Shown here: positions 4,400 through 64,000 of the stretch, piece after piece
Position numbering within the stretch: position 1 is the first letter of the stretch
Layout of the letters: each line of letters opens with the position of its first letter
Origin: Daucus carota subsp. sativus
Lineage: Eukaryota; Streptophyta; Magnoliopsida; Apiales; Apiaceae
Reading direction: 5' to 3'
NCBI RefSeq assembly: GCF_001625215.2
Contig: NC_030385.2
Span: 33,753,598 to 33,817,597, forward strand
DNA: 64,000 nt
Translations under genes and position numbers: made by a program
The notes under the pieces: generated by a model
Seen by the model: the letters and a program-made list of their open reading frames with translations, nothing else
Databases searched by the model: none
What the model was told of the DNA's origin: nothing

Positions 4400-5927
4400 T
4401 TTATATTATTTTTTTAAAAAAACTCGAAATTATTTTCAAGTGTTTACTTTTATTTTTGGGTATTCGGATGCTGGTCATTCCCATTTTGGGCGGAACAGAT
4501 CAATATAATAACTAAAATATAATTATTTATAATTTCTATATTTTTTGAATCGGTGTCTGAACCAATATGATACTATAACTAAATATAATAAAATATGATT
4601 ATTTATAAACTTCTATGGATCCATCATGGTGTCTGAACTAATATGTTAATAATGTTTTTTTTAATAGTTTGAATTGCATATTCACTCTTTGTTTATAAGA
4701 AAATTCCGCTTTTGATAATATTCAAGTACTAATGACGGTTTTTTTTTGTTATGAAAATGGTAACATTTTTTTTGTTTTTATCTTGATTTTCATTCAGCGT
4801 TTGAATGATTTTTTTTTCCTTCAGTTTTTTAATATTCGAGAATCATGAAATTTTGTGTAAGATGAGTTTAAATTCCAAATATAGTATTAGAGTAATAAAA
4901 AATCGTAATTGTTTGTTAGGAAACTCAACTCGACTTGGTTCATTATTGAATTGGAAGAACAAAATGAGTAAGGAACCCGAGTCAAATCAAGTTTTATAAG
5001 TGTTTCTCCTTAAACTCAATTCGTAATAGAACGATCTGAACTCGTTAAATTCGAACTCTGGCTCATTAGAAATATAATAAATATAACCTTTTTTCTACTT
5101 TCTGTCTTTGGATGTTCTTTTTCTTGCATTTGCTGATATTATATGAACTGGATTTAATCACTACTTTTTAAAATTATGATGTTCAATCAAGATTTTAAAT
5201 GAGCTCAAAAAAAAATAAAAAAACAACATTGAATCATTTGAGTTGTTCATGGAGGGTTCGAATTCGACTCGCTTCGAACAACACATAAGGTTCAACAAGT
5301 TAAATACCAAACTCTACTCGGCTCATTTATATTATAATATAAATTATATTGTATTATGTAAGAATTATACTAACAAATAAAAGTATAATAAGATGAAGCC
5401 GTACGTACCCTTCAATATGTCTTCGTACGTGAATTTATAAATACAAGATCAGTCATACGTAATTTTTGGAGATTAGGGTGCCTAATTCAATTAGAAATAG
5501 GTTTCCTCGAGATAAGTCCATAGTCAAAGCGGTGGCTTGTAGACCGGTCTTTTAACGTCTTTCAAAAATTTCCGCCAAGACGGTTCTAATATGCTCGTAA
5601 GGAGAGTTCTACTCTGTTAAAAACTAGTTAACTAATTATTGGAGTTAACACTAACCGCTAATTTTCATATCTGAAAGGAGTCATACGGTATAGTCAAGGT
5701 GTAAGGACGACCCCTTGCCCCGATGAAGATATCCCCAGAATACAAAGTAAAGTCTCCCGCTAAACAACCAGAACATACAATCATTTCAATTTTCCGACGA
5801 GGTTAACCCACCACAACAAGGTCTAAATATGTGATCGTTCTTCATACAATCCCAGACAATCTTCAATAAGAATCGAAATCACTTTAAATTTGTGCATGAG
5901 GATGTTATTTTTCTATATCTAACTGTT
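4400..5927. other. Intergenic, degenerate repeats
   Basis: No gene seen. The 4915-5340 stretch has scattered ACTCG/CGAGT and AATTCGAA words that look like a decayed MITE of the kind at 54612. From 5400 to 5880 the base composition is more mixed, with a TATAAATA at about 5436. It could be an old LTR fragment into which the Copia element inserted, but no partner copy is present to show this. Confidence 0.35.
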
Positions 5928-6126
5928 TGCTAAAGAGAAATCTTGTAGAAGAAGACTAAAGCTGTATATTGCATAAGAATGTAAAGTGTACAGTACTGTG
6001 AAATGAAGACTAGAGCTACATATATACAAGCTGTAGGCTAAACTAACTAACTGAATTATTGGCGGGAAATAACTAACTACAGCTGGCTACAGCTGTCATC
6101 TATGTGGCAAAGCATGTATATTTACA
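5928..6126 (-). repeat. Copia 3' LTR
   Basis: The 199-bp left LTR copy, ending TG..CA on the minus strand and adjoining the polypurine tract. It contains GGCGGGAAAT and a TATATATG that may serve as the LTR TATA box. Confidence 0.85.
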
Positions 6127-8351
6127 GCCTCCCTCAAGTTGGTGGATATATGTGGTGATGAAGGAGCAGCATAGATTCCCAACTTGGAGAGTAAATTACT
6201 CAACTGTGGAGAAGGAATAGTCTTTGTAAATAAATCTGCTAATTGTAACTTTGTAGGCAAGTATGTGAGTTGCAATAATCCTTCCATTACTTTATCTCTT
6301 GTAAAGTGACAATCCACTTCTATGGGCTTGGTTCTTTCATGAAACACTGGATTTCTTGCTATATGCAGTGCAGATTGGTTATCACAGTGTAATGTTACTG
6401 GTTTTAAATTGTCAACACCTAGTTCATTTAGCAATCTGACTGTCCAAACAACCTCAGAGGCTGCTGCTGCCATGGCTCTGTACTCAGCCTCTGATGATGA
6501 TCTTGAAACAGTACTTTGCTTCTTAGATCTCCATGTAATAGGTGACTGACCAAAAAGCAACATATAACCAGTAATCGAACGTCTTGAATCTGGACATGAT
6601 GCCCAGTTTGAGTCAGAAAACGCCTGTAATGTTAACTCACTTGCTGCATTAAGTAGAATACCTTGACCTGCTGTCTGAGAAATATATCTGAGTGTGTGCT
6701 GTAAGGCATCCAAGTGTGATGTTCTAGGCTGCTGCATATATTGACTCAAAATCTGAACTGAATAACTCAGGTCTGGTCTTGTGTTTGTAAGGAAATTCAA
6801 TTTTCCCACAAAAGATCTGTACTCTTCTGGATCTGACAACAAACTTCCTTCTTCTGCTGATAATTTCAAAGATAAAGGAAGTGGTGTGACTGCTTTCTTT
6901 GTAAGATCATAAGGACAATCATGCAATAATTCCTTAGTGAATTTCTTCTGTGATAACACTATTCCATCAGGCAAATACATGATCTCAATACCCAGAAAGT
7001 AATGCAATAATCCCAAGTCCTTGATGCTAAAAACCTTATCTAAATGTGCTTTTACCTCTGCAATCTTAGCAACATTGTCCCCTGTGATGATGATATCATC
7101 AACATAAACAGCTACCACAGTCATTCCAGCTTCTGTCTTAGAAATGAACAAACTATAATCGTTTTTCGACTGCTTAAATCCTTGCATAATCAGTTCCATA
7201 GTTAGTTTAGCAAACCATCTTCTAGATGCTTGTTTTAACCCATAAATGCTCTTTCTGAGTCTGCAGACTTTTCCTTCTGGATTAGGTATGCCATCTGGTA
7301 CTACCATATATACTTCCTCAAATAGATCTCCATGCAAGAAAGCATTATTGACATCACATTGATGAAGTTGCCACTTTTTGCTTGCTGCTAAAGTAATCAA
7401 ACACCTCACTGTACTCATTTTTACTACAGGAGAAAAAGTTTCTTCGTAATTCACCCCATACTTTTGATTGTAACCCTTGGCAACTAACCTTGCCTTGCAC
7501 CTTTCCAATGTCCCATCTGATTTGAGTTTAGTCTTATAGACCCATCGACACCCTATAGCTTTCTTACCTTTAGGCAAATCAACTAACTCCCAAGTGTTAT
7601 TGTTTTCCAAAGCTTGAATTTCTTTATCCATAGCTTCTATCCAGAGTGGTGATTTAGATGCTTCTTGATAATTAGCTGGCTCAACAGGAATGTCTGCTTT
7701 TGCTGTACAATGGGGAAGAGGAATCTGATCATGTGCAACTAAATTGCACCAATGTTTATTAAGAACATTCTCAGTGGTCAATACACAAGAATGACACTGA
7801 TATTCCTTGAGATAAGAAGGTGGTCTTGTTTGTCTGGTGGATTGTCTAGGTACAAATGTATCAGGAGTATTTGAAGGAGAATTACCAGTAGAATTTTGAG
7901 TAGATGAGTCTGAACTACTATTACTGGAACCAGAACTGTGTACTGTAGGAGTAAAAGAATCAAACCCTTCAGTGTTGTGTTCTGTGTCTGAAATATCATT
8001 TGTATCAGAAATCTGAGCATTTGACTGAGTGATATTGTCATCATCAATTATCTGCTTTGGTGTAGTCATCAAGGGAAGAAAAATTTGGTCTAAATACTCA
8101 GCAGTAGATCCTTTGTTTTGTATGATGTGAAAAGGAAAATGACTTTCCACAAACACTACATCTCTAGTAACAGAAACAGTTGATGTCTTTAAATCAAAGA
8201 CTCTGTATCCTTTTTGAGTATTTGTATATCCCAAGAAAACACATGCATTTGCTAAAGAGAAATCTTGTAGAAGAAGACTAAAGCTGTATATTGCATAAGA
8301 ATGTAAAGTGTACATTACTGTGAAATGAAGACTAGAGCTACATATATACAA
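6096..8351 (-). CDS. Copia pol fragment: integrase tail, reverse transcriptase, RNase H
   Basis: Uninterrupted 751-codon frame. Residues 1-34 come from the 5' LTR. Residues 35-70 are the end of the integrase region (CVFLGYTNTQKGYRVFDL, then VTRDVVFVE). A Ser/Thr-rich linker follows. Reverse transcriptase spans about 237-490, with NNTWELVDLP, CRWVYKTK, DVNNAFLHGDL, IYGLKQASRRWF and the catalytic YVDD at 416-419. RNase H spans about 570-710, with FSDSNWA, SRSSSEAEYRAM, HCDNQSA and the terminal ADLFTK. All catalytic carboxylates of both domains are present. The frame stops inside the 3' LTR. Without gag, protease, integrase core or primer-binding site it cannot be autonomous. It is annotated as a retroelement fragment, not a host gene. 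Confidence 0.85.
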   Translation of the reverse strand: MYICSSSLHFTVMYTLHSYAIYSFSLLLQDFSLANACVFLGYTNTQKGYRVFDLKTSTVSVTRDVVFVESHFPFHIIQNKGSTAEYLDQIFLPLMTTPKQIIDDDNITQSNAQISDTNDISDTEHNTEGFDSFTPTVHSSGSSNSSSDSSTQNSTGNSPSNTPDTFVPRQSTRQTRPPSYLKEYQCHSCVLTTENVLNKHWCNLVAHDQIPLPHCTAKADIPVEPANYQEASKSPLWIEAMDKEIQALENNNTWELVDLPKGKKAIGCRWVYKTKLKSDGTLERCKARLVAKGYNQKYGVNYEETFSPVVKMSTVRCLITLAASKKWQLHQCDVNNAFLHGDLFEEVYMVVPDGIPNPEGKVCRLRKSIYGLKQASRRWFAKLTMELIMQGFKQSKNDYSLFISKTEAGMTVVAVYVDDIIITGDNVAKIAEVKAHLDKVFSIKDLGLLHYFLGIEIMYLPDGIVLSQKKFTKELLHDCPYDLTKKAVTPLPLSLKLSAEEGSLLSDPEEYRSFVGKLNFLTNTRPDLSYSVQILSQYMQQPRTSHLDALQHTLRYISQTAGQGILLNAASELTLQAFSDSNWASCPDSRRSITGYMLLFGQSPITWRSKKQSTVSRSSSEAEYRAMAAAASEVVWTVRLLNELGVDNLKPVTLHCDNQSALHIARNPVFHERTKPIEVDCHFTRDKVMEGLLQLTYLPTKLQLADLFTKTIPSPQLSNLLSKLGIYAAPSSPHISTNLREAVNIHALPHR

Positions 8352-8448
8352 GCTGTAGGCTAAACTAACTAACTGAATTATTGGCGGGAAATAACTAACT
8401 ACAGCTGGCTACAGCTGTCATCTATGTGGCAAAGCATGTATATTTACA
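8250..8448 (-). repeat. Copia 5' LTR
   Basis: The 199-bp right LTR copy, 198/199 identical to the left one by eye. It supplies the start codon and about the first 34 codons of the downstream RT-RNase H reading frame. Confidence 0.85.
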
Positions 8449-9823
8449 GAGGACAAGCCGACATACTACGTGATCGAGAATCGTAGATCACGCCGGATGA
8501 GCTTTCGGATGCCGAGGTCTTCATATTTTACGGAAAGAAGATCTCTCTATTTTTTTCAAAGGGTAACAACATACTCTCCTCGTGAAAGAGCCTTCTCTGT
8601 ACCATAATTTGCCAAGACATCATTTATTTAGAACCAGACCTGAAAACGTCTCCCATGTCAATATGGAGTCACCTCTCGCAATTTCATCCTATCAACGAAC
8701 ACTTGTCAAAAAAAACAAAAAAACGAACACTTTCATTATGGCTGCGCCCCTCTATTGTCACTAAAGACTCCCCTGCATCACGTATATACAGGGCTCAATC
8801 TAATTCGCACGTGCTTACTCCAGTCAGATATATACCCGACCTACTAAAAATCTAGCTAAATTTGGCTATCAGCATAATCAAAATTTAAAATGATACGGAT
8901 AAAAATTTTAACGGACTGAAATTGCAAAAAATAAAACCGAACCATGTCAAAATTATATGATACAGTTCAATTTTTTTAGTTCCGTTGATATATCATATTA
9001 TGATAAATTGAATCTAATTCTAGAAGACCTAAATACAGAAAAACTGAAGACGCTATCCATACCAATCAAACTTCACACGCCAAGTGGTTTCTGTGGGTGT
9101 CTCACCAATCTTCAAAAACCAGCAGCGCCCACCATACTTTCTCACAATTTCTAGTTCTTCTCCAAGTCCAATGTCCCGCAGAGTACTTCTTTATTTCTTT
9201 TCTTTATATTGCTTTGTACTTGTTTAATTTGCAAATCTATTGCAAATTTTTTTGTCGAACAAAAAAAATCAGATACGGCTGAACTTCTAAATAGAAATCA
9301 TGAGCATTCTGGTTCAGCTTTTGACACATTAAAACGACAACTGATGTCATTAAACCACAAAACGGAGACGTTTGCAAAACAAATTTAGCAAATTGACTAA
9401 CATCTTAGAACAATAGTATATACTTAATATTTTATTAATAATAATTAATCCTCTGTCAATGCAAGATAAGTTATAAGTTTGATTCTTCCAATCAAAAGTT
9501 TTAGAATGAATACAACTCCAAGTTATGTACTCATAAATTTGATTCTCACCAAATATGGAAGTTAAAGGAAATAAACATTCAATTCTGACCTAATCAGACA
9601 TATTAGAACAGATCGTTAAGTTTAGAACCATACTACAAAAAAAAAAAAAAAAAATCAGGTGAAAAACAAACTCCATAATTTATTTCAAAAATTGCGTATA
9701 TACAATTACTGAATAGAATAAATAAAATTAATCAAAACGAAATTATAAACAACATTGAAACAAGAATCCTGTTTCCAGTTATGAAACCAGTGCAGACAAC
9801 AACAAAACCACCATGTCCAAACC
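8449..9823. other. Intergenic, nothing recognised
   Basis: 8449-8600 is relatively GC-rich and may belong to the same older repeat as 5400-5927. The rest is AT-rich with a poly(A) run near 9636. No exon with coding signature was found. The 9660-9823 part probably holds the ERF 3' UTR. Confidence 0.4.
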
Positions 9824-11403: not shown

Positions 11404-11744
11404 GGTATTATTTGTGAATTAGTGGTAAGCGGTTAGTTATCGGATTGATTTAGAAGTTTTGACTAGCTGATTGAAATAGTTATTTTGAAAAGCGGATTGA
11501 ATTAACGGTTTCTTGTAAAATTGTTTAGTAAATAGCTGTTTGATTAGGCTTTTATAACATATATCAAGATTGATAACTCAAAAATCTCCTCAAAATAACT
11601 TTTTGAAAATTAGCTTTATGAGTCATAATCTCAATTTTATTCTCCAAACTATCAAACACTAATATTAGCGGATTGAAATGGTAAACCTCTGAAACATCCA
11701 AAATCTCTAATTTTACCTCAAACCTCTAACTTCCAAACACGGCC
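11404..11744. mobile_element. Tourist-like MITE, copy 1
   Basis: Imperfect ends GGTATTATTTG... and ...CAAACACGGCC. The interior is rich in AGCGGATTGAATTA, GTTTTGACTAGCTGATTGA and TTTGGTAAATAGCTG words shared with copies at 17314 and 32338. Its 341 bp equals the length of the 17314 copy after its nested insert is removed. The flanks (TAT/ATA) are a decayed 3-bp duplication. Confidence 0.7.
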
Positions 11745-17313: not shown

Positions 17314-17920
17314 GGCCCTGTTTGAGAAATAGCGGTTAACAGTTAGCGGATCGAATTAGCTGTTTTGACTAGCTGATTGAATTACATGTTTTGACTAGTG
17401 GATTGAATTAGCTGTTTCTCGTAAAACTGTTTGGTAAATAGCTGATTGATTAGTTTTTTCTGACACAAACTAAAACCGCTAATCCAAGAAGCTCCTCAAG
17501 ATAGCTTTTTCAAAATTAGCTTTTTGGATTCAAATATCTATTTCAATCCGCCGCTAATTACCAAACACTAATACTCCCTCCATCCCAAATTAGATGAGCC
17601 TTTTGAGAAATTTTTTTATCTCAAAATAGTTGAGCTTCTCCCTTTTCAATGCATATTTATCAACCATCTTCCATCTTTATCCTCTTATATTTATTATTCC
17701 AATATACCACTAGCTAATACTACAATAAGAAGTCAACACAATAAATATGGGCAAAGGAGGAAAAAGAAACAACCATTTAATACTTCTTGATATGTGTAAA
17801 ATGAGCAAAAGGCTCATCTAAATTGGGATGGAGGGAGTATTAGCTTATTTTAGTGGTCAGATCTCTAAAACACCTCAAACCTCTAATTTTGCCCCAAACC
17901 TTTAACTTTCAAACATGGTC
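17314..17920. mobile_element. Tourist-like MITE, copy 2, with nested Stowaway
   Basis: Ends GGCCCTGTTTGAGAAATAG... and ...CTTTCAAACATGGTC, flanked by TAA on both sides (17311-17313 and 17921-17923), the 3-bp duplication of PIF/Harbinger elements. A Stowaway at 17574-17837 interrupts it. Without that insert and its TA duplication the element is 341 bp. Confidence 0.85.
17574..17837. mobile_element. Stowaway MITE nested in the Tourist-like MITE
   Basis: 264 bp with long, nearly exact terminal inverted repeats, CTCCCTCCATCCCAAATTAG at one end and the complement at the other, flanked by TA. The host element resumes cleanly on both sides when aligned with the copy at 32338. Clean ends indicate a younger insertion than its host. 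Confidence 0.9.
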
Positions 17921-32337: not shown

Positions 32338-32654
32338 GGCTCAGTTTGGGAATTAGCAGTTAGCGGATTGAATTAAATGTTTTGATTAGCTGATTTAAAT
32401 ATATGTTTTTACTAGCGGATTGAATTAGCAGTTTCTTATAGAACTGTTTGATAAATAGCTGTTTGATGAGTTTTTTGTGACACATACCCAAACCGCTAAC
32501 TCAAAAAACTCCTTAAACTAGCTTTTTGAACCCAAACTTCTATTTTAATCCGCTAACTACCAAACACTAACATTAGCGGATTAAAATGATCAAACCTCTG
32601 AAACACCTCAAACCTCTCATCTTACCCACAAAACCCCCACTTCCAAACACTCCC
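32338..32654. mobile_element. Tourist-like MITE, copy 3
   Basis: Starts GGCTCAGTTTGGGAATTAGC and ends ...CTTCCAAACACTCCC. It shares the AGCGGATTGAATTA and AAACACCTCAAACCTCT blocks with copies 1 and 2 and lacks the Stowaway present in copy 2. The flanks are decayed (ATT/GTT). Confidence 0.75.
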
Positions 32655-45539: not shown

Positions 45540-46219
45540 GAGTTAATTACAAATTGCACCCCTTAGTTTCGCTTATTAGCAAGATGAGTTCAATAGTTTA
45601 ACATTAGACACTACACGTCCTTTTATTTTGTTTGAAAAATCACTTTGCACCCTTTCCGTTAATTTTAACCGTTACCGTTAACTTTTGCAGGGGCATTTTG
45701 GGAAATTTTATTATATTTAATTAAAATCAGACCTTCATTTAAATGTTCTGACCATCTAAACGATATTTTTCAGAAAAACTTAAAGAACAAAAATTATAGA
45801 GAATAAAAAGATCTTTTTAGAACTATAAGGTTCAAAATTATCGTAATTATTGTTATAATTATTTTTAAAAAATCGAAAATTAGCAATCTTGTAAAAACGA
45901 ACAATCGTTTTTAAATAATTATATAAATTTTGAACCTTATTGTTCTAAGAAGATCTTTTTATTCTCTACAACTTTCGCTCTTTAAGTTTTTCCGAAAAAT
46001 ATCGTTTAGATGGTCAGAAAATTTAAATAAAAATCTGATTTTTAATTAAATATAATAAATTTATCAAAATGCCCATGCAAAAGTTAACGGTAATGATTAG
46101 AATTAATAGAGAGAGGGTATTGCGCGGTTAAAAGTAAGAGGATGCAAAGTGTTTATTCCAAAACTATCAGGTGCAATGTGCAATAAGTTTAAACCAAATG
46201 TGTCACATGCAGTTAACTC
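45540..46219. mobile_element. Long-TIR foldback Mutator-like element, copy A
   Basis: 680 bp, almost entirely an inverted repeat: the left half (CTTTGCACCC, AACCGTTACCGTTAACTTTTGC, TCTGACCATCTAAACGATATTTTTC) returns as its complement in the right half around a centre near 45880. Ends GAGTTAATTAC and ...GTTAACTC. A perfect 9-bp target duplication TTTAAATTA lies at 45531-45539 and 46220-46228. Non-coding. Same terminal sequence as the element at 60504. Confidence 0.88.
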
Positions 46220-59109: not shown

Positions 59110-60503
59110 TAAGTTACTGTATAATTATTTTTTTTCTGATTAATAAGAAATCTCTTTAATATTAAATTGCTCGTGTTTCATACTTGTGCTTGAGACAAAA
59201 GCTTGACTTTTATACTTTCGCAAGGAAAATCTGGCAGCGGATTATACTATACCAATGTGGTGCAAGTTGCAACCATACATGTGGGCACAGTACTTCGAAA
59301 AACAACCTTTAGGGTACAAGTTTTGCTCTGTCAGGACGACAAATTCAAAAGCTAACTCTACAATACACCGTATGAAATCAGAGTGGTTGATAAATAAAAA
59401 GAGCAGTGCTCCTAAAAGTTGAAACTGTTAGTTTGTTTTCGCTCCTATAATATAGTTTTATAAATTTGTTAAAATTTTTCCGGATAAAAATATAATATCT
59501 CAATCTAAGTTCGGATTAAAAAATTAAAATAAGTTATAAGACTATATTTTGTATATACGTATCAAATTATGAAGAATTATATTTAAAAATTAGAGGACGG
59601 AGAGAAATTATACTTTTTAAACTAATGGATTCGTTATTATTTGTCGAGATAACTAAAAGATATATTTCAGGAACATTCGCATATGTCGCATTAAAAAAGA
59701 CACTAACTTGTCAAAATTTTATTAGCTAAACAGCCTGAGTAATAGCTACATCAGTCTTGCATGTATCAGAATTTTACATCCGAAAGTTTTGGAAACGATC
59801 AGACATTTTGGTTTAAAAAATATATTGAAGTATCGGGCAAAGCTTGTAAACTCAGAAGAAAATAGGCGAGAGAGAGCCCGTTTGTAATTCAAATGATCCA
59901 TCAATAGAAGAAATGGAAGAGATTGTGGACAATTGTATAATCGAACGTTTAAATTGCTTCGGGCCATGGTTTGGCCCAAATGGTCCAAGCAGATCATGGC
60001 CCAAATTGTCCTAGCAGATTCGCTGTTTAAAGATCAACACGGCAGGCCTTTCTTATATTGTCTAAACAAAAATGACCACTGCAGCAAAGTTTACAAAAAT
60101 GTGAAGGACATGTGGATCAGGGTTATATAAATTTATCGTGAATAAATAAGATTATTCTTAACTCTAAAATTGTCCAGGGTGTGAATGAGTCTAGGTGTGA
60201 ACGAGCTTGATTCGATCGTTCTTTTTAGCTTGAATAATAATATTGTCAATTAAGAAATTCAAATCAAGTCGAATATCATTAGTGTTTCATTTGAGCTTGA
60301 TAATCCAATTAAGCTTGGTTCGAATTATTATTGTGTTATATAGTTTGAATAATAATATTGTCAATTAAAAAACTCAAATCGAATCGAATAACATTAATGT
60401 TCGACTCGAATTTGACTCATAATCAAGTTGACCTCAATTCGAATGATTAAATTCGAACTTAAATCACTAAAATATAACATGTATAAGTTATTAATTTGTT
60501 TTA
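59110..60503. other. Intergenic, degenerate repeats
   Basis: No gene. 60190-60470 contains recurring TTCGAAT/ATTCGAA and AATCAAGTCGAA words like the decayed region at 4915-5340, perhaps a worn relative of the elements with text-like internal repeats. Confidence 0.4.
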
Positions 60504-61172
60504 GAGTTAATTACACTTTGTAACCCCTAGGTTTGCTCAAAACGCAGTTTAGTACTTGAACTATAAAATGTGACAATATGCACCCTAAACTTAACATTCC
60601 CGTGCAAGTTATAACCCTTGGTCACTATTCCGTCCAAATCTGCCGTTAACTTTAACTGTTTGAGAGGTAACCGTGTGTATATTAGTTTCCAACAGCTACT
60701 TTACCCCATGTGACCCCTCAAAAATTATGTATTATATTTTGAAATTATTTTTAAACACACACAACGATGTAAAAAAAATTAAAATAACTTTTAAACTATG
60801 TATCTAGATTTAGAATCTGAAAATTTATTTATTTTACATAAACGATGTAACTTATTTAAAATTTTAAAATAAATACATATTTTAAAAATTAATTTAAATT
60901 TTTTTATATCGTTGTGTGTGTTCAGAAATAATTTCAAAATATAATACATAAACTTTGAGGGGTCACAGGGGGTAAAGTAGCTGTTAGAGACTAATATACA
61001 CACTGTTACCTCTCAAATAGTTAAAGTTAACTGCAGATTTGGACGGAATAGTGACTAGGGGTTACAACTTGCACGAGAATGTTAAGTTTAGGGTGCATAT
61101 TGTCACGTTTTAAAGTTCAGATACTAAAATGCGTTTGGAGCAAACTTAGGAGTTACAAAGTGTAATTAACTC
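60504..61172. mobile_element. Long-TIR foldback Mutator-like element, copy B
   Basis: 669 bp inverted repeat. The left arm (GAGTTAATTACACTTTGTAA, CTAGGTTTGCTC, CAATATGCACCCTAAACTTAA) is mirrored in the right arm, which ends GTGTAATTAACTC. The centre is near 60830. A perfect 9-bp target duplication TTTGTTTTA lies at 60495-60503 and 61173-61181. Non-coding. It shares the GAGTTAATTAC terminus with copy A. Confidence 0.9.
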
Positions 61173-61181
61173 TTTGTTTTA

Positions 61182-61866
61182 ACATAAACTAGAAAACACT
61201 GTTTAAGTGATGAATTTTATTTGTTATTGTATATATGGAATAAGACAGTGAACATTTTTTGATATGTCGGGAAAGATATGTTTGGCACTTGATGGGGCCT
61301 TCGAATTCAACTTCTTCAGTTCGGAAAGGAGAAAGAAAGGCGCGCAGAAGGGGAAAAAAAAGAGGAAGAATTTAAATTAAGATGCCAATGTCGTAAATGT
61401 CAACAAATTCTGGCAGCCAGCCAAAAACGAAAAATATTTTAGAGCAAATAATGCAACAAAGAATTAAAATAACGTGCATGGATTGGCTGCATGCTAATTT
61501 TCAAATTTAATGCCAACTGCTTATATTTTTGTTGAATTTCTTCCGTCGTGGTTGACAAGGTTTATTAGTAGTTCGGGTAGCAATGCACTGTAGTAATATT
61601 ACGACATGTATGGGAAAAAATGGAATACTTGAGCAGTCTTCTTTCTAGTAATATAATTATTAACTACAATTGACACATTAACAACTTCTCAAAATATTGA
61701 AATGACAAAGTCTCAGATCGATGAACGCGTTTTGCAGCCTAACTTTTTGCGATCGAAGATTATAAACCTTTCATTTCAAATCTCCATTCACATGTCCGGA
61801 ACATCAAATTCCAACCGTACATGAGACTCTAGTAAATTTTGAAATTACAAAATTGATAGATATTTC
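61182..61866. other. Intergenic, nothing recognised
   Basis: AT-rich with a short GA-rich stretch near 61320-61370. No gene. Confidence 0.4.
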
Positions 61867-63002
61867 TGTTGGAACCAAGATTCTGCCGGATGCGGATATC
61901 CTGATAGGACCTGCAAAGGAGAAGAATGCGAGGGATTGTCCCCCCGATTTACCTCCGGTGTGAGAATAAGTCAGTGGTTCCAGGTGAGGTTTAATGGAAA
62001 CTGCAAGTGTTTGTGTGTGTTGTAGAGATCAAGTCAATGTTTATCTCATATTACCGGGGTATTTAAAGGGGGAGATTTCCATGTTGTAACGTCTCCCTGA
62101 TGTGGTAGGAGAGTAATGGGGTTTTAATGCGGCGTGATCCCCGCTTCCGACCGTTACAAAGATAGTGCTGGAGTAGTTTAAATGATGGGCTGGACCTCTT
62201 GGGCCTGTCCTCCAACATGTCCCCAGGCTTCGGTCGGGTCTGTGCGTGGCCGAAGTCTGAGTAGTCTCGTCGACCGACGAGAAGAGAAGTCGGATTGTAA
62301 GATCGTGGAATCGAGTCTTGGCAACCGAAGGTCTGTAGAGAATGGCCCCCGAAGCCCGATCAGTCCCGAGGCGTCGTCGACCTGCGAGGGAGGTCGAGTC
62401 TTATCGCTCCGAGTGGTCGATTCTGGCCACTAATGGCCTAACTAGTGATGTCCCGGAGCTGATGAAGAGCCCGGGACCTCGTTCCTTCATCTTCCCGACT
62501 GATCGCTTGGTATATACTGGCCGGTCATCACAGTATTGCTGCGAGCCGATTGGTTATCTTCCCTTGTCGCCAATCGGGAGAATGATTTCAAAGATCGGTT
62601 GCATCGGACGGAGGTTCTTCGGTCATACCGAAGGGCGAATAGAGGCCAGTCAAGACGATACTCAAGGCTAGAGACCAGGGGGTCGCTATTGAGAACGACG
62701 CGTCGGTCATTTGCGCTCATGAGGTCGGTCAGGACCATAGACTTCTTGTCGAAAGCACGGGCGACCTGCTAGGCCATCCGTAAGTAGCCCCGGCTTCTGA
62801 ACGTTTATATTATTGGTGTGCCTTCGGGCATCGGGCATTTTTGATTGTATTCGGGCCCCATTTTCAGGGTATTATTTTATGCATCTTTGGCTTAAATGTA
62901 TGTTGCCTTAGCGTATTTTTCCCTCAGTGCTTCTTGGGTGTTCATAACCTCAGCATAGTGCGCGTTTGGCTATTTTTTTAATTTGCCTCGGGCGTAATCT
63001 TG

Positions 63003-63866
63003 ATGTATGTCTTCGACTGACCGGTCTCAATACATGTGTTTATAGTATGTCTTCGACCGACTGGTCTCGATACGCTTTTTTGTATGTGCGTTTTCAGCCG
63101 ATGAGGCTTCGGCCCATGTGTAATTGGTGTTGTACGTCTTTAGCCGATGAAGCCTCGGTACACGTGTATTCGTACGTCTTTAGCCAATGAGGCTTCGATA
63201 CAAGTGTGTTGAATGGTAATTTTTCATGTACGTCTTGAGCCGATGTGGCTTCGGTGCATGACTGTCGTTCTCAAGTATTTGGAGGGTAACTTAACACAAG
63301 AGGTCTGATCGGGTGTATGTCTTCGACCATAACGTCTCGATACATGCTTTTAATTATGATGTATGTCTTCGACCGAAGCGTCTCGATACATGTCTTTCAA
63401 TGGTGATGCGTGTCTTCGACCGAAGCGTCTCGACACATCTCCTTTAATCGTGATGTGTGTATTTGACCGAAGCGTCTCGACACATCTCCTTTAATCGTGA
63501 TGTGTGTCTTTGACCGAAGCGTCTCGACGCATGTCTTAAATCGTGATGTGTGTCTTTGACCGAAGCGTCTCGACACATCTCTTAATTGTGATGTGTGTCT
63601 TTGACCGAAGCGTCTCGACACATCTTTAATCGTGATGTGTGTCTTTGACCGAAGCGTCTCGACACATCTTTAATCGTGATGTGTGTCTTTGAACGAAGCG
63701 TCTCGACACATGTCTTTGTATGTGCGTTTTCAGCCGATGAGGCTTCGGCACACGTTTTGTTTTAAATTCTAATGTACGTCTTTAGCCGATAAGGCTTCGG
63801 CACATGTGTAATTGGATTTAAATTCTAATTGTACGTCTTTAGCCGATGAGGCTTCGGTACATGAGT
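63003..63866. repeat. Array of about 18 hairpin-forming repeat units
   Basis: About 32-nt palindromic units separated by short spacers (period 43-47 bp in the regular part, about 63400-63710). Two related types occur. Type B (11 units) has GTCTTCGACC...GTCTCGA. Type A (7 units) has GTCTTTAGCC...GGCTTCGG. Outer stems covary: GTATGTC/GATACAT, GTGTGTC/GACACAT, GTGC/GCAC and GTAC/GTAC. Inner stems are GACC/GGTC and AGCC/GGCT. No long open frame crosses the array. Confidence 0.8.
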
Positions 63867-63890
63867 GTCATTCCCCCAGTATTCGGAGGG
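63200..63890. repeat. Higher-order duplication of the array
   Basis: The spacer AGTATTYGGAGGG occurs at 63274-63286 and again at 63878-63890, 604 bp apart. Each copy follows type A units and is followed within about 30-40 bp by a TGATCGG. The order type B, type A, spacer is thus present twice. Confidence 0.65.
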
Positions 63891-64000
63891 TTGTTTTTAG
63901 CTCAATAAAAGAGATATGATCGGATTTATCGTCCCTTGAGATAAAAACAAGCATACGAATACTCAAAATATAGAGTCCGACGGACCCGTATCTTATTCAG

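Follow-up and report, generated by a model that had tools for sequence, protein, structure and literature searches.

Tandem two-helix hairpin units in a young, gag-bearing LTR element of carrot with Retand-like relatives

Work by Macas in 2009 is said to have described hypervariable tandem repeats in the 3' UTRs of Ogre/Tat elements. For the Retand elements, the main text of PMC11963269 reports antisense TRP28 ORFs in 97% of the clusters and tandem arrays in about half of them, and states that the origin and the function of these arrays are unknown. Tandem arrays between the facing ends of integrase and an antisense gene are already known in Retand; what is new here is the form of the units, each of them a hairpin of two helices joined by a conserved, unpaired internal loop. 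We have found such units in a window of 64,000 nucleotides of carrot (Daucus carota subsp. sativus, contig NC_030385.2, positions 33,753,598 to 33,817,597), whose own numbering is used below, and we have compared them with the units of other copies in the same genome.

The hairpin array and its host element

The array is located at 63003-63862 and consists of 18 tandem hairpin units, with the 18 unit cores at 63009-63835; tandem repeats have been detected inside it, at 63314-63717 and 63720-63863. Units 1-6 (63003-63259) occur at 63003-63035, 63043-63075, 63084-63117, 63130-63163, 63170-63203 and 63226-63259, and are followed at 63260-63312 by an internal copy of the sequence that is located 3' of the last unit, i.e. 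by a longer-period duplication within the array. Units 7-15 (63313-63711) are of the GACC..CGTC kind, with a spacing of 44-47 bp, and units 16-18 (63720-63862) are of the AGCC..GGCT kind, with unit 18 aligning to the terminal hairpin of the relatives; no strand is assigned to any of these features. Because a copy of the array's own downstream flank is found inside it (63260-63312 against 63863-63929), a longer duplication has, to judge from the sequence, contributed to the growth of the array at least once; the stretch 62995-63318 can be aligned with 63583-63929 at 69%.

The common form of the unit is ATGTAT-GTCTTN-GACC-loop-GGTC-TCG-ATACAT, with many drifted forms: an outer helix and an inner helix are joined by an asymmetric, non-complementary internal loop (GTCTTN / TCG). 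The conservation of the loop letters GTCTT and TC is about that of the stems, and is lower for the final N and the G. The stability of the units is modest (-7.1 and -7.5 kcal/mol) and the folding energy gives no clear strand preference (P=0.09); folded together, the 864 nt are more stable than 20 of 20 shuffles, with z -3.84 on one strand and -3.66 on the other. A search of Rfam 15 with 61500-64000 has given nothing at the gathering score, and a single match up to E=1 (RF00468, 20.9 bits against the 63 required).

An earlier note on this DNA had described a tandem array of about 18 hairpins at 63003-63866, and the number of units and their start and end are confirmed, as is the joint change of the outer arms (TGTAT/ATACA, TGTGT/ACACA, TGTGC/GCACA and TGTAC/GTACA). 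Its inner stem, said to switch between GACC/GGTC and AGCC/GGCT, is found in part: the AGCC/GGCT kind occurs in units 3-6 and 16-18, but GACT or GACC is paired with GGTC only in units 1-2 (63003 and 63043), while in units 7-15 the inner stem is a 3-bp GAC/GTC helix with a C.C behind it, and unit 15 (GAAC) loses the third pair too. The A.C mismatches that had been pointed out in units 5 and 17 are present, but the exceptions are more than the three that had been listed: units 2, 3, 5, 6, 9, 11 and 17 have non-Watson-Crick cells among their outer pairs O2-O6, and unit 4, of the AGCC/GGCT kind, has one A.C and one C.A in its inner stem. The A.C cells of the outer pairs, located in unit 5 (two), unit 9 and unit 17, are G.U on the other strand.

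The host of the array is an LTR element of 3739 bp that extends past the end of the window (61867 to 65605). Its LTR of 351 bp at 61867-62217 (minus strand, TGTTGGA...TCCAACA) is the 3' LTR in the direction of gag; the second LTR, located by BLAST of the flanks at C5:33818852-33819202, outside the window, is a 99.43% identical copy 3.4 kb away, and the 5-bp target duplication ATTTC/ATTTC is present on both sides. The element is young. On the minus strand, a PBS-like TTGGCGCC adjoins the right LTR, and the longest listed ORF (366 aa, outside the window), which is on this strand too, is gag (PF03732, E=4.6e-12); the genomic-sense strand is therefore the minus strand, and the array is located between gag and the 3' LTR. 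No pol-like ORF occurs among the ORFs of at least 70 aa, RT having had no search of its own, and no match to integrase or to the antisense ORF has been found in the window copy (tblastn, E up to 1e-4); judged by these ORFs and matches, the copy is non-autonomous, with gag and without detectable pol.

Other repeats of the window are mentioned here as separate observations. A self-complementary stretch at 60503-61173 (aligned over 674 nt with its reverse complement, at 87.8%), foldback or MITE-like, is separated from the Retand insertion by about 0.7 kb, and a large palindrome is found at 45659-46106 (456 nt aligned at 82.9%). At 5926-8449, direct repeats of 202 bp, 99.5% identical, surround an ORF of 751 aa, which resembles a Ty1/copia polyprotein. 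Three dispersed repeat copies (11428-11740, 17331-17573 and 32353-32650) are 75-78% alike, and two of the three contain a 26-bp tandem motif (TAGCGGATTGAATTA..).

Relatives, the conserved block and other TRP28-bearing elements

A search of the carrot genome for other copies, already proposed when the array was first described, has returned at least 54 matches; stretches of 10 kb have been read at 19 places (L009 with L010, L011-L028), and short stretches at 34 further array places. Nine loci (L009, L011-L018) form a gag-only family: by tblastn (E up to 1e-4), the antisense ORF has no match at these loci, and integrase has none within the elements. The seven of them that have been measured span 3215-3882 bp, with an LTR identity of 95.25-100%, an exact 5-bp duplication in three and a 366-aa ORF on the gag strand in four. 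The arrays of the nine gag-only loci have 11-21 units each, versus 2-7 in the relatives, where the 7 of L024 belong to two arrays.

In the fuller relatives (L019-L028), homologues of the antisense ORF have been found by tblastn at ten of ten loci. A Pfam scan, which has covered L025 and one ORF of L024, identifies the latter as PF04195 (TRP28, E=8.6e-07) and finds RVT_1, RT_RNaseH, RVT_3 and rve in L025, i.e. RT, two RNase H types and integrase. The array is located between the facing ends of the antisense ORF and the integrase in eight of the ten (L019, L020, L021, L022, L024, L025, L027 and L028), with no close integrase in the stretch read at L023 and L026; the conserved block around the array begins directly after the antisense ORF, and the array adjoins pol, which the window copy is without. 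This order, antisense ORF, array and integrase, is the layout that the main text of PMC11963269 reports for Retand, and the relatives look like Retand/Tat elements, a filing that follows their domain layout and the LTR and block that they share with the window copy. Of the features concerned, the window copy itself has TG..CA LTRs, the 5-bp target duplication and the gag domain; pol (as in L025) and the antisense TRP28 ORF (as in L024) are without a match in it and present in relatives. The previous suggestion that the array is in an untranslated part of a Tat-lineage gypsy element is thus supported by the LTRs, gag and the domains of the relatives. L057 appears by eye to be a rearranged relative, with gag-like sequence close behind the array and oppositely oriented.

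The block includes elements on both sides of the array. In front of it, a single TGCC-TTCG-GGCA hairpin is located at 62819-62830 (plus strand); GCCTTCGGGC occurs at this place in 36 of the 39 relatives listed, in 1-4 copies per array, and one TGCCTTCGGGCA-type copy is present in eight of the nine gag-only loci. GCCTTCGGGC forms a cUUCGg tetraloop in the reading direction of the antisense gene only. Behind the array, the arms of stem S1 (63878-63905 and 63936-63963, plus strand; alignment columns 86-107 with 165-187) are 86% complementary, and the 5' part of stem S2 (63982-64000, plus strand) consists of GGACCCGTATC and then the conserved loop TCAGGTTGCCCC, with the 3' arm beyond the window. 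AATAAA follows 40-52 nt behind the array in six gag-only copies; it has been rejected as a general antisense poly(A) site, being present within 500 nt in only 4 of the 28 relatives listed.

The downstream block has been aligned for 42 stretches from 41 loci (327 columns; loci at least 98.5% alike were dropped, 49 to 42). Unit 18 matches the terminal hairpin of these 42 stretches, although in a few of them, such as L020 and L040, this hairpin is incomplete or its alignment poor. The terminal hairpin adopts three alternative pairings across the copies, and its pair O5 is A.C in 15, and A.G in one, of the 41 usable rows. In S1 and S2, 97.5% of 1343 cells are standard pairs, versus 35.8-48.4% when slid, the structure being predicted from the same alignment; against the tree null, the paired fraction of 0.975 compares with a mean of 0.70 and a maximum of 0.82. 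Changes on both sides are found in 50 cells versus 15.3 in shuffles, but the pairs with any two-sided change, 7 versus 6.1, show no excess. The summed covariation (85.3 versus 81.4) is narrowly above 200 of 200 tree simulations; none of the single pairs passes the tree null, with E 0.18-2.5 for the seven pairs that vary together, and in an earlier run on the flanking block of 32 relatives, none of the 25 top-ranked column pairs was in the predicted structure.

Our search for arrays in other TRP28-bearing elements has given 864 candidates for PF04195 in the genome, of which 150 were scored, with 2.5 kb read at 14 divergent places. Tandem arrays of at least three copies occur at three of the 14 (L065, L073 and L076), the other 11 being without such a TRF array, and none of the three arrays has a convincing match to the window unit (best E 0.53). 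Stems of at least 6 bp number 28 versus 4.5 in shuffles at L073, and 9 versus 1.3 at L076; the hairpin arrays of these two loci (1330-2420 in L073 and 1280-1700 in L076, on the strand of the antisense gene) share unit types, with the sequences AAGCCTTGATAGGCTT, AAAGCTTTGATAAGCTTT and GGGCTACTGTTAGCCC, unlike the window unit. In 8 and 12 of 20 of their units, respectively, AAGCC..GGCTT and AAGCT..AGCTT are found, a change of C-G to T-A without a mismatch, the right-hand partner having been left free in the pattern. At L065, a single stem of this length is found in each 96-bp unit (5 versus 0.9 shuffled), but its flank also has more of them than shuffles (5 versus 1.5). Hairpins above shuffles were found in none of the nine scanned divergent loci without a tandem array, L066 and L067 being outside the scan. 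The scan, which looks for uninterrupted stems, sees the two-helix units of the window poorly and is no fair control for them; among the few other tandem arrays listed, it places L025:243-769 (GC 0.12) and L012:8568-8677 above shuffles. A candidate A-T/T-A covariation in GGGCTNCTGTNAGCCC of L073 has been dropped: letter counts from 71 of the 252 matches of a genome pattern search are A.A, a mismatch, in 48, A.T in 11, T.A in 10 and G.A in 2.

Covariation and strand asymmetry of the units

The comparison of the units is based on a first set of 266 units at 37 loci, from which one unparsed unit and one further row were dropped, and on a later set, where 310 of 322 units were parsed (12 dropped), 162 of them distinct. 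A tight unit pattern has 85 matches in the whole genome versus 0 for the reversed control; with most of the stems left free, the matches are 198 versus 14, some of the 198 being plainly other repeats. A new unit form, AAACC..GGGTTT, occurs at at least five loci.

Two-sided changes have been counted in disjoint closest pairs of units, pooled over eight stem pairs; all P-values of this work are nominal, uncorrected for the several tests made. In the first set, 14 such changes are found where 6.2 are expected (P=0.0006); in the 158 distinct rows, 17 are found where 9.2 are expected (P=0.003), and 12 of the 17 are Watson-Crick to Watson-Crick; four slid controls on these rows give 0, 0, 0 and 2 changes of the latter kind (P of at least 0.18). 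With ten stem pairs, the counts are 28 versus 11.7 for all units, 16 versus 5.4 for the close family and, weakly, 9 versus 5.0 for the relatives alone, with 2 Watson-Crick to Watson-Crick, and 60 random non-stem pairs give 67 versus 58.6. In the tree-aware test of single pairs on all units, I1, O5 and I2 take the first three places among 465 column pairs, none being significant (E 0.53-0.94); in the window units alone, the best pair, O5, has E=0.067 against the tree-aware null, above the usual threshold. Covariation is therefore present but modest, and rests on pooling. The earlier note had staked its reading on covariation above the phylogenetic background: no single pair reaches this (best E 0.5-0.9), and the excess is seen in pooled tests only, so that the idea of a pairing kept while the sequence drifts is suggested by the pooled tests, but not by the tree-aware tests of single pairs.

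The single-sided departures from pairing are unequal on the two strands: in the 158 rows, read on the plus strand, A-C occurs 55 times versus 21 for G-T (P=0.0001). Five reruns with other tie-breaking give A-C 47-50 versus G-T 19-22 (P 0.0002-0.0035), and without O5 four of them give 39:17 to 41:18 (P 0.004-0.005), the fifth 40:20 (P=0.0135). The unpaired neighbour columns are unbiased, with 111.3 events of T>C plus G>A versus 110.8 of A>G plus C>T. Since A-C on the plus strand is G-U on the minus strand, i.e. in the genomic-sense RNA, the excess points to this RNA; a cruciform or a conversion between the arms has no reason to prefer either mismatch. Pairing in RNA and pairing as a DNA cruciform had both been proposed for the array, and the former is now favoured over the latter; conversion between the arms of a palindrome, proposed as another origin of the covariation, alone fits poorly with the strand-asymmetric departures and with the conserved, unpaired GTCTT and TC.

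The strand signal of the block conflicts with that of the array. In S1 and S2, read on the plus strand, entries into mismatch show no clear difference (Watson-Crick to G-U 23, to A-C 15), but restorations are 8 from G-U versus 0 from A-C (P=0.013), on the opposite strand to the array, and the terminal hairpin alone leans to G-T (7.5 events of Watson-Crick to G-T versus 4.6 to A-C); the block may work in both transcripts.

Possible roles and comparison with known systems

We read the array as a cis-acting feature of the genomic RNA, because the block is kept in the gag-only family, the loops are conserved and the mismatches are strand-biased. That it is part of a structured, cis-acting non-coding RNA region of a Retand-type element, located in the fuller relatives between the convergent ends of pol and the antisense gene, is a tentative reading, to which we give a little under an even chance. 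In its layout, the unit would correspond to an RNA hairpin that is bound by a protein, with the repetition serving multivalent binding, and the hairpins would most likely be a cis-acting signal of the genomic-sense RNA, either for recognition by Gag during packaging or for the export of unspliced RNA; the fold of the RNA would then be under selection, the genomic-sense strand would be the one that counts, and the array would have a role in mobilisation. The gag-only derivative would have kept the block, with more units and without detectable integrase or antisense gene, although the retention of the block and the amplification of the units in this family may be one evolutionary event.

A neutral tandem repeat, produced by slippage or by abnormal strand transfer in reverse transcription, with palindromic arms that correct each other and so mimic covariation without function, would agree with the variable number of units between copies and with the non-significant tree-aware tests of single pairs; we consider it rather unlikely, given that the correction of the arms should make the loop complementary, while GTCTTN and TCG are unpaired and mostly conserved, that a strand-symmetric process gives no excess of A-C over G-T, and that units at the same position differ by plausible steps (GACC/GGTC, AACC/TGTC and AACC/TGTT in L036, L033 and L044). 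The position of the block right behind the antisense ORF suggests another reading, in which the array is part of the 3' UTR of the antisense (TRP28) mRNA and the hairpins either shape the 3' end of this mRNA or separate the two convergent transcripts. The tetraloop of GCCTTCGGGC, directed with the antisense gene in 36 of the 39 relatives listed, and the passage of S1 and S2 through G-U on the strand of that gene (the 8 restorations versus 0, P=0.013) agree with it, and PMC7264820 reports, for Grande and weakly for Retand, that such ORFs are transcribed in antisense; the array itself, however, has the opposite asymmetry, AATAAA is near in only the 4 of 28 relatives listed, the genomic RNA must read through the block too, and the gag-only copies keep the block without a detectable antisense ORF, which makes this reading unlikely.

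At the level of DNA, the units could be imperfect palindromes bound by a dimeric protein, e.g. the TRP28 protein, which is predicted to bind DNA according to the main text of PMC11963269. Dyad symmetry, conserved linkers, many tandem copies and the regular spacing of 44-47 bp in units 7-15 are in keeping with such sites, but compensated changes of stem letters are unexpected for a fixed DNA site, the excess of A-C over G-T is left unexplained, and no antisense ORF is detected in the gag-only family; we regard DNA sites as quite improbable. The cis-acting RNA reading could be extended to an undescribed class of RNA in Retand elements, i.e. a multi-hairpin region between convergent genes, where the fold and the loop letters are kept, the helices drift and the arrays are replaced in other families by hairpins of other sequence; this extension is doubtful, and we would not expect it to hold.

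The window family and Retand, as presented in the main text of PMC11963269, have in common the features of the lineage, an array next to pol, antisense TRP28 ORFs (in the relatives of the window copy) and a number of units that varies between copies. That text reports the sizes, numbers and places of the repeats, to which the window array adds hairpin units, pooled covariation and a longer conserved structured block; in it, the terms hairpin, stem-loop, inverted and secondary structure do not occur, and palindrom occurs only in the title of a reference. The tandem repeats of the hypervariable 3' UTRs of Ogre/Tat elements, in the part of PMC7004042 consulted, are likewise short, family-specific arrays downstream of gag-pol, but they are described as seeds of satellite DNA, unlike our reading of the window array, and the terms palindrom and hairpin have 0 occurrences in the text searched. 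Among the top titles and the starts of abstracts in the open-licence literature, we have found no prior description of hairpin units in Retand arrays.

Should the arrays be folded RNA and not slippage debris, the question of their origin and function in Retand becomes testable, and the gag-only family is a natural reduced element for studying them. Retroviral CTE/RRE-like RNA elements are structured RNAs with conserved internal loops between variable helices, and they are repeated. The likeness of the Retand hairpin array to them is by analogy only; if the cis-acting reading is true, the array would be a plant retrotransposon counterpart of the retroviral export or packaging elements, which would explain why the 3' arrays of Retand are kept.
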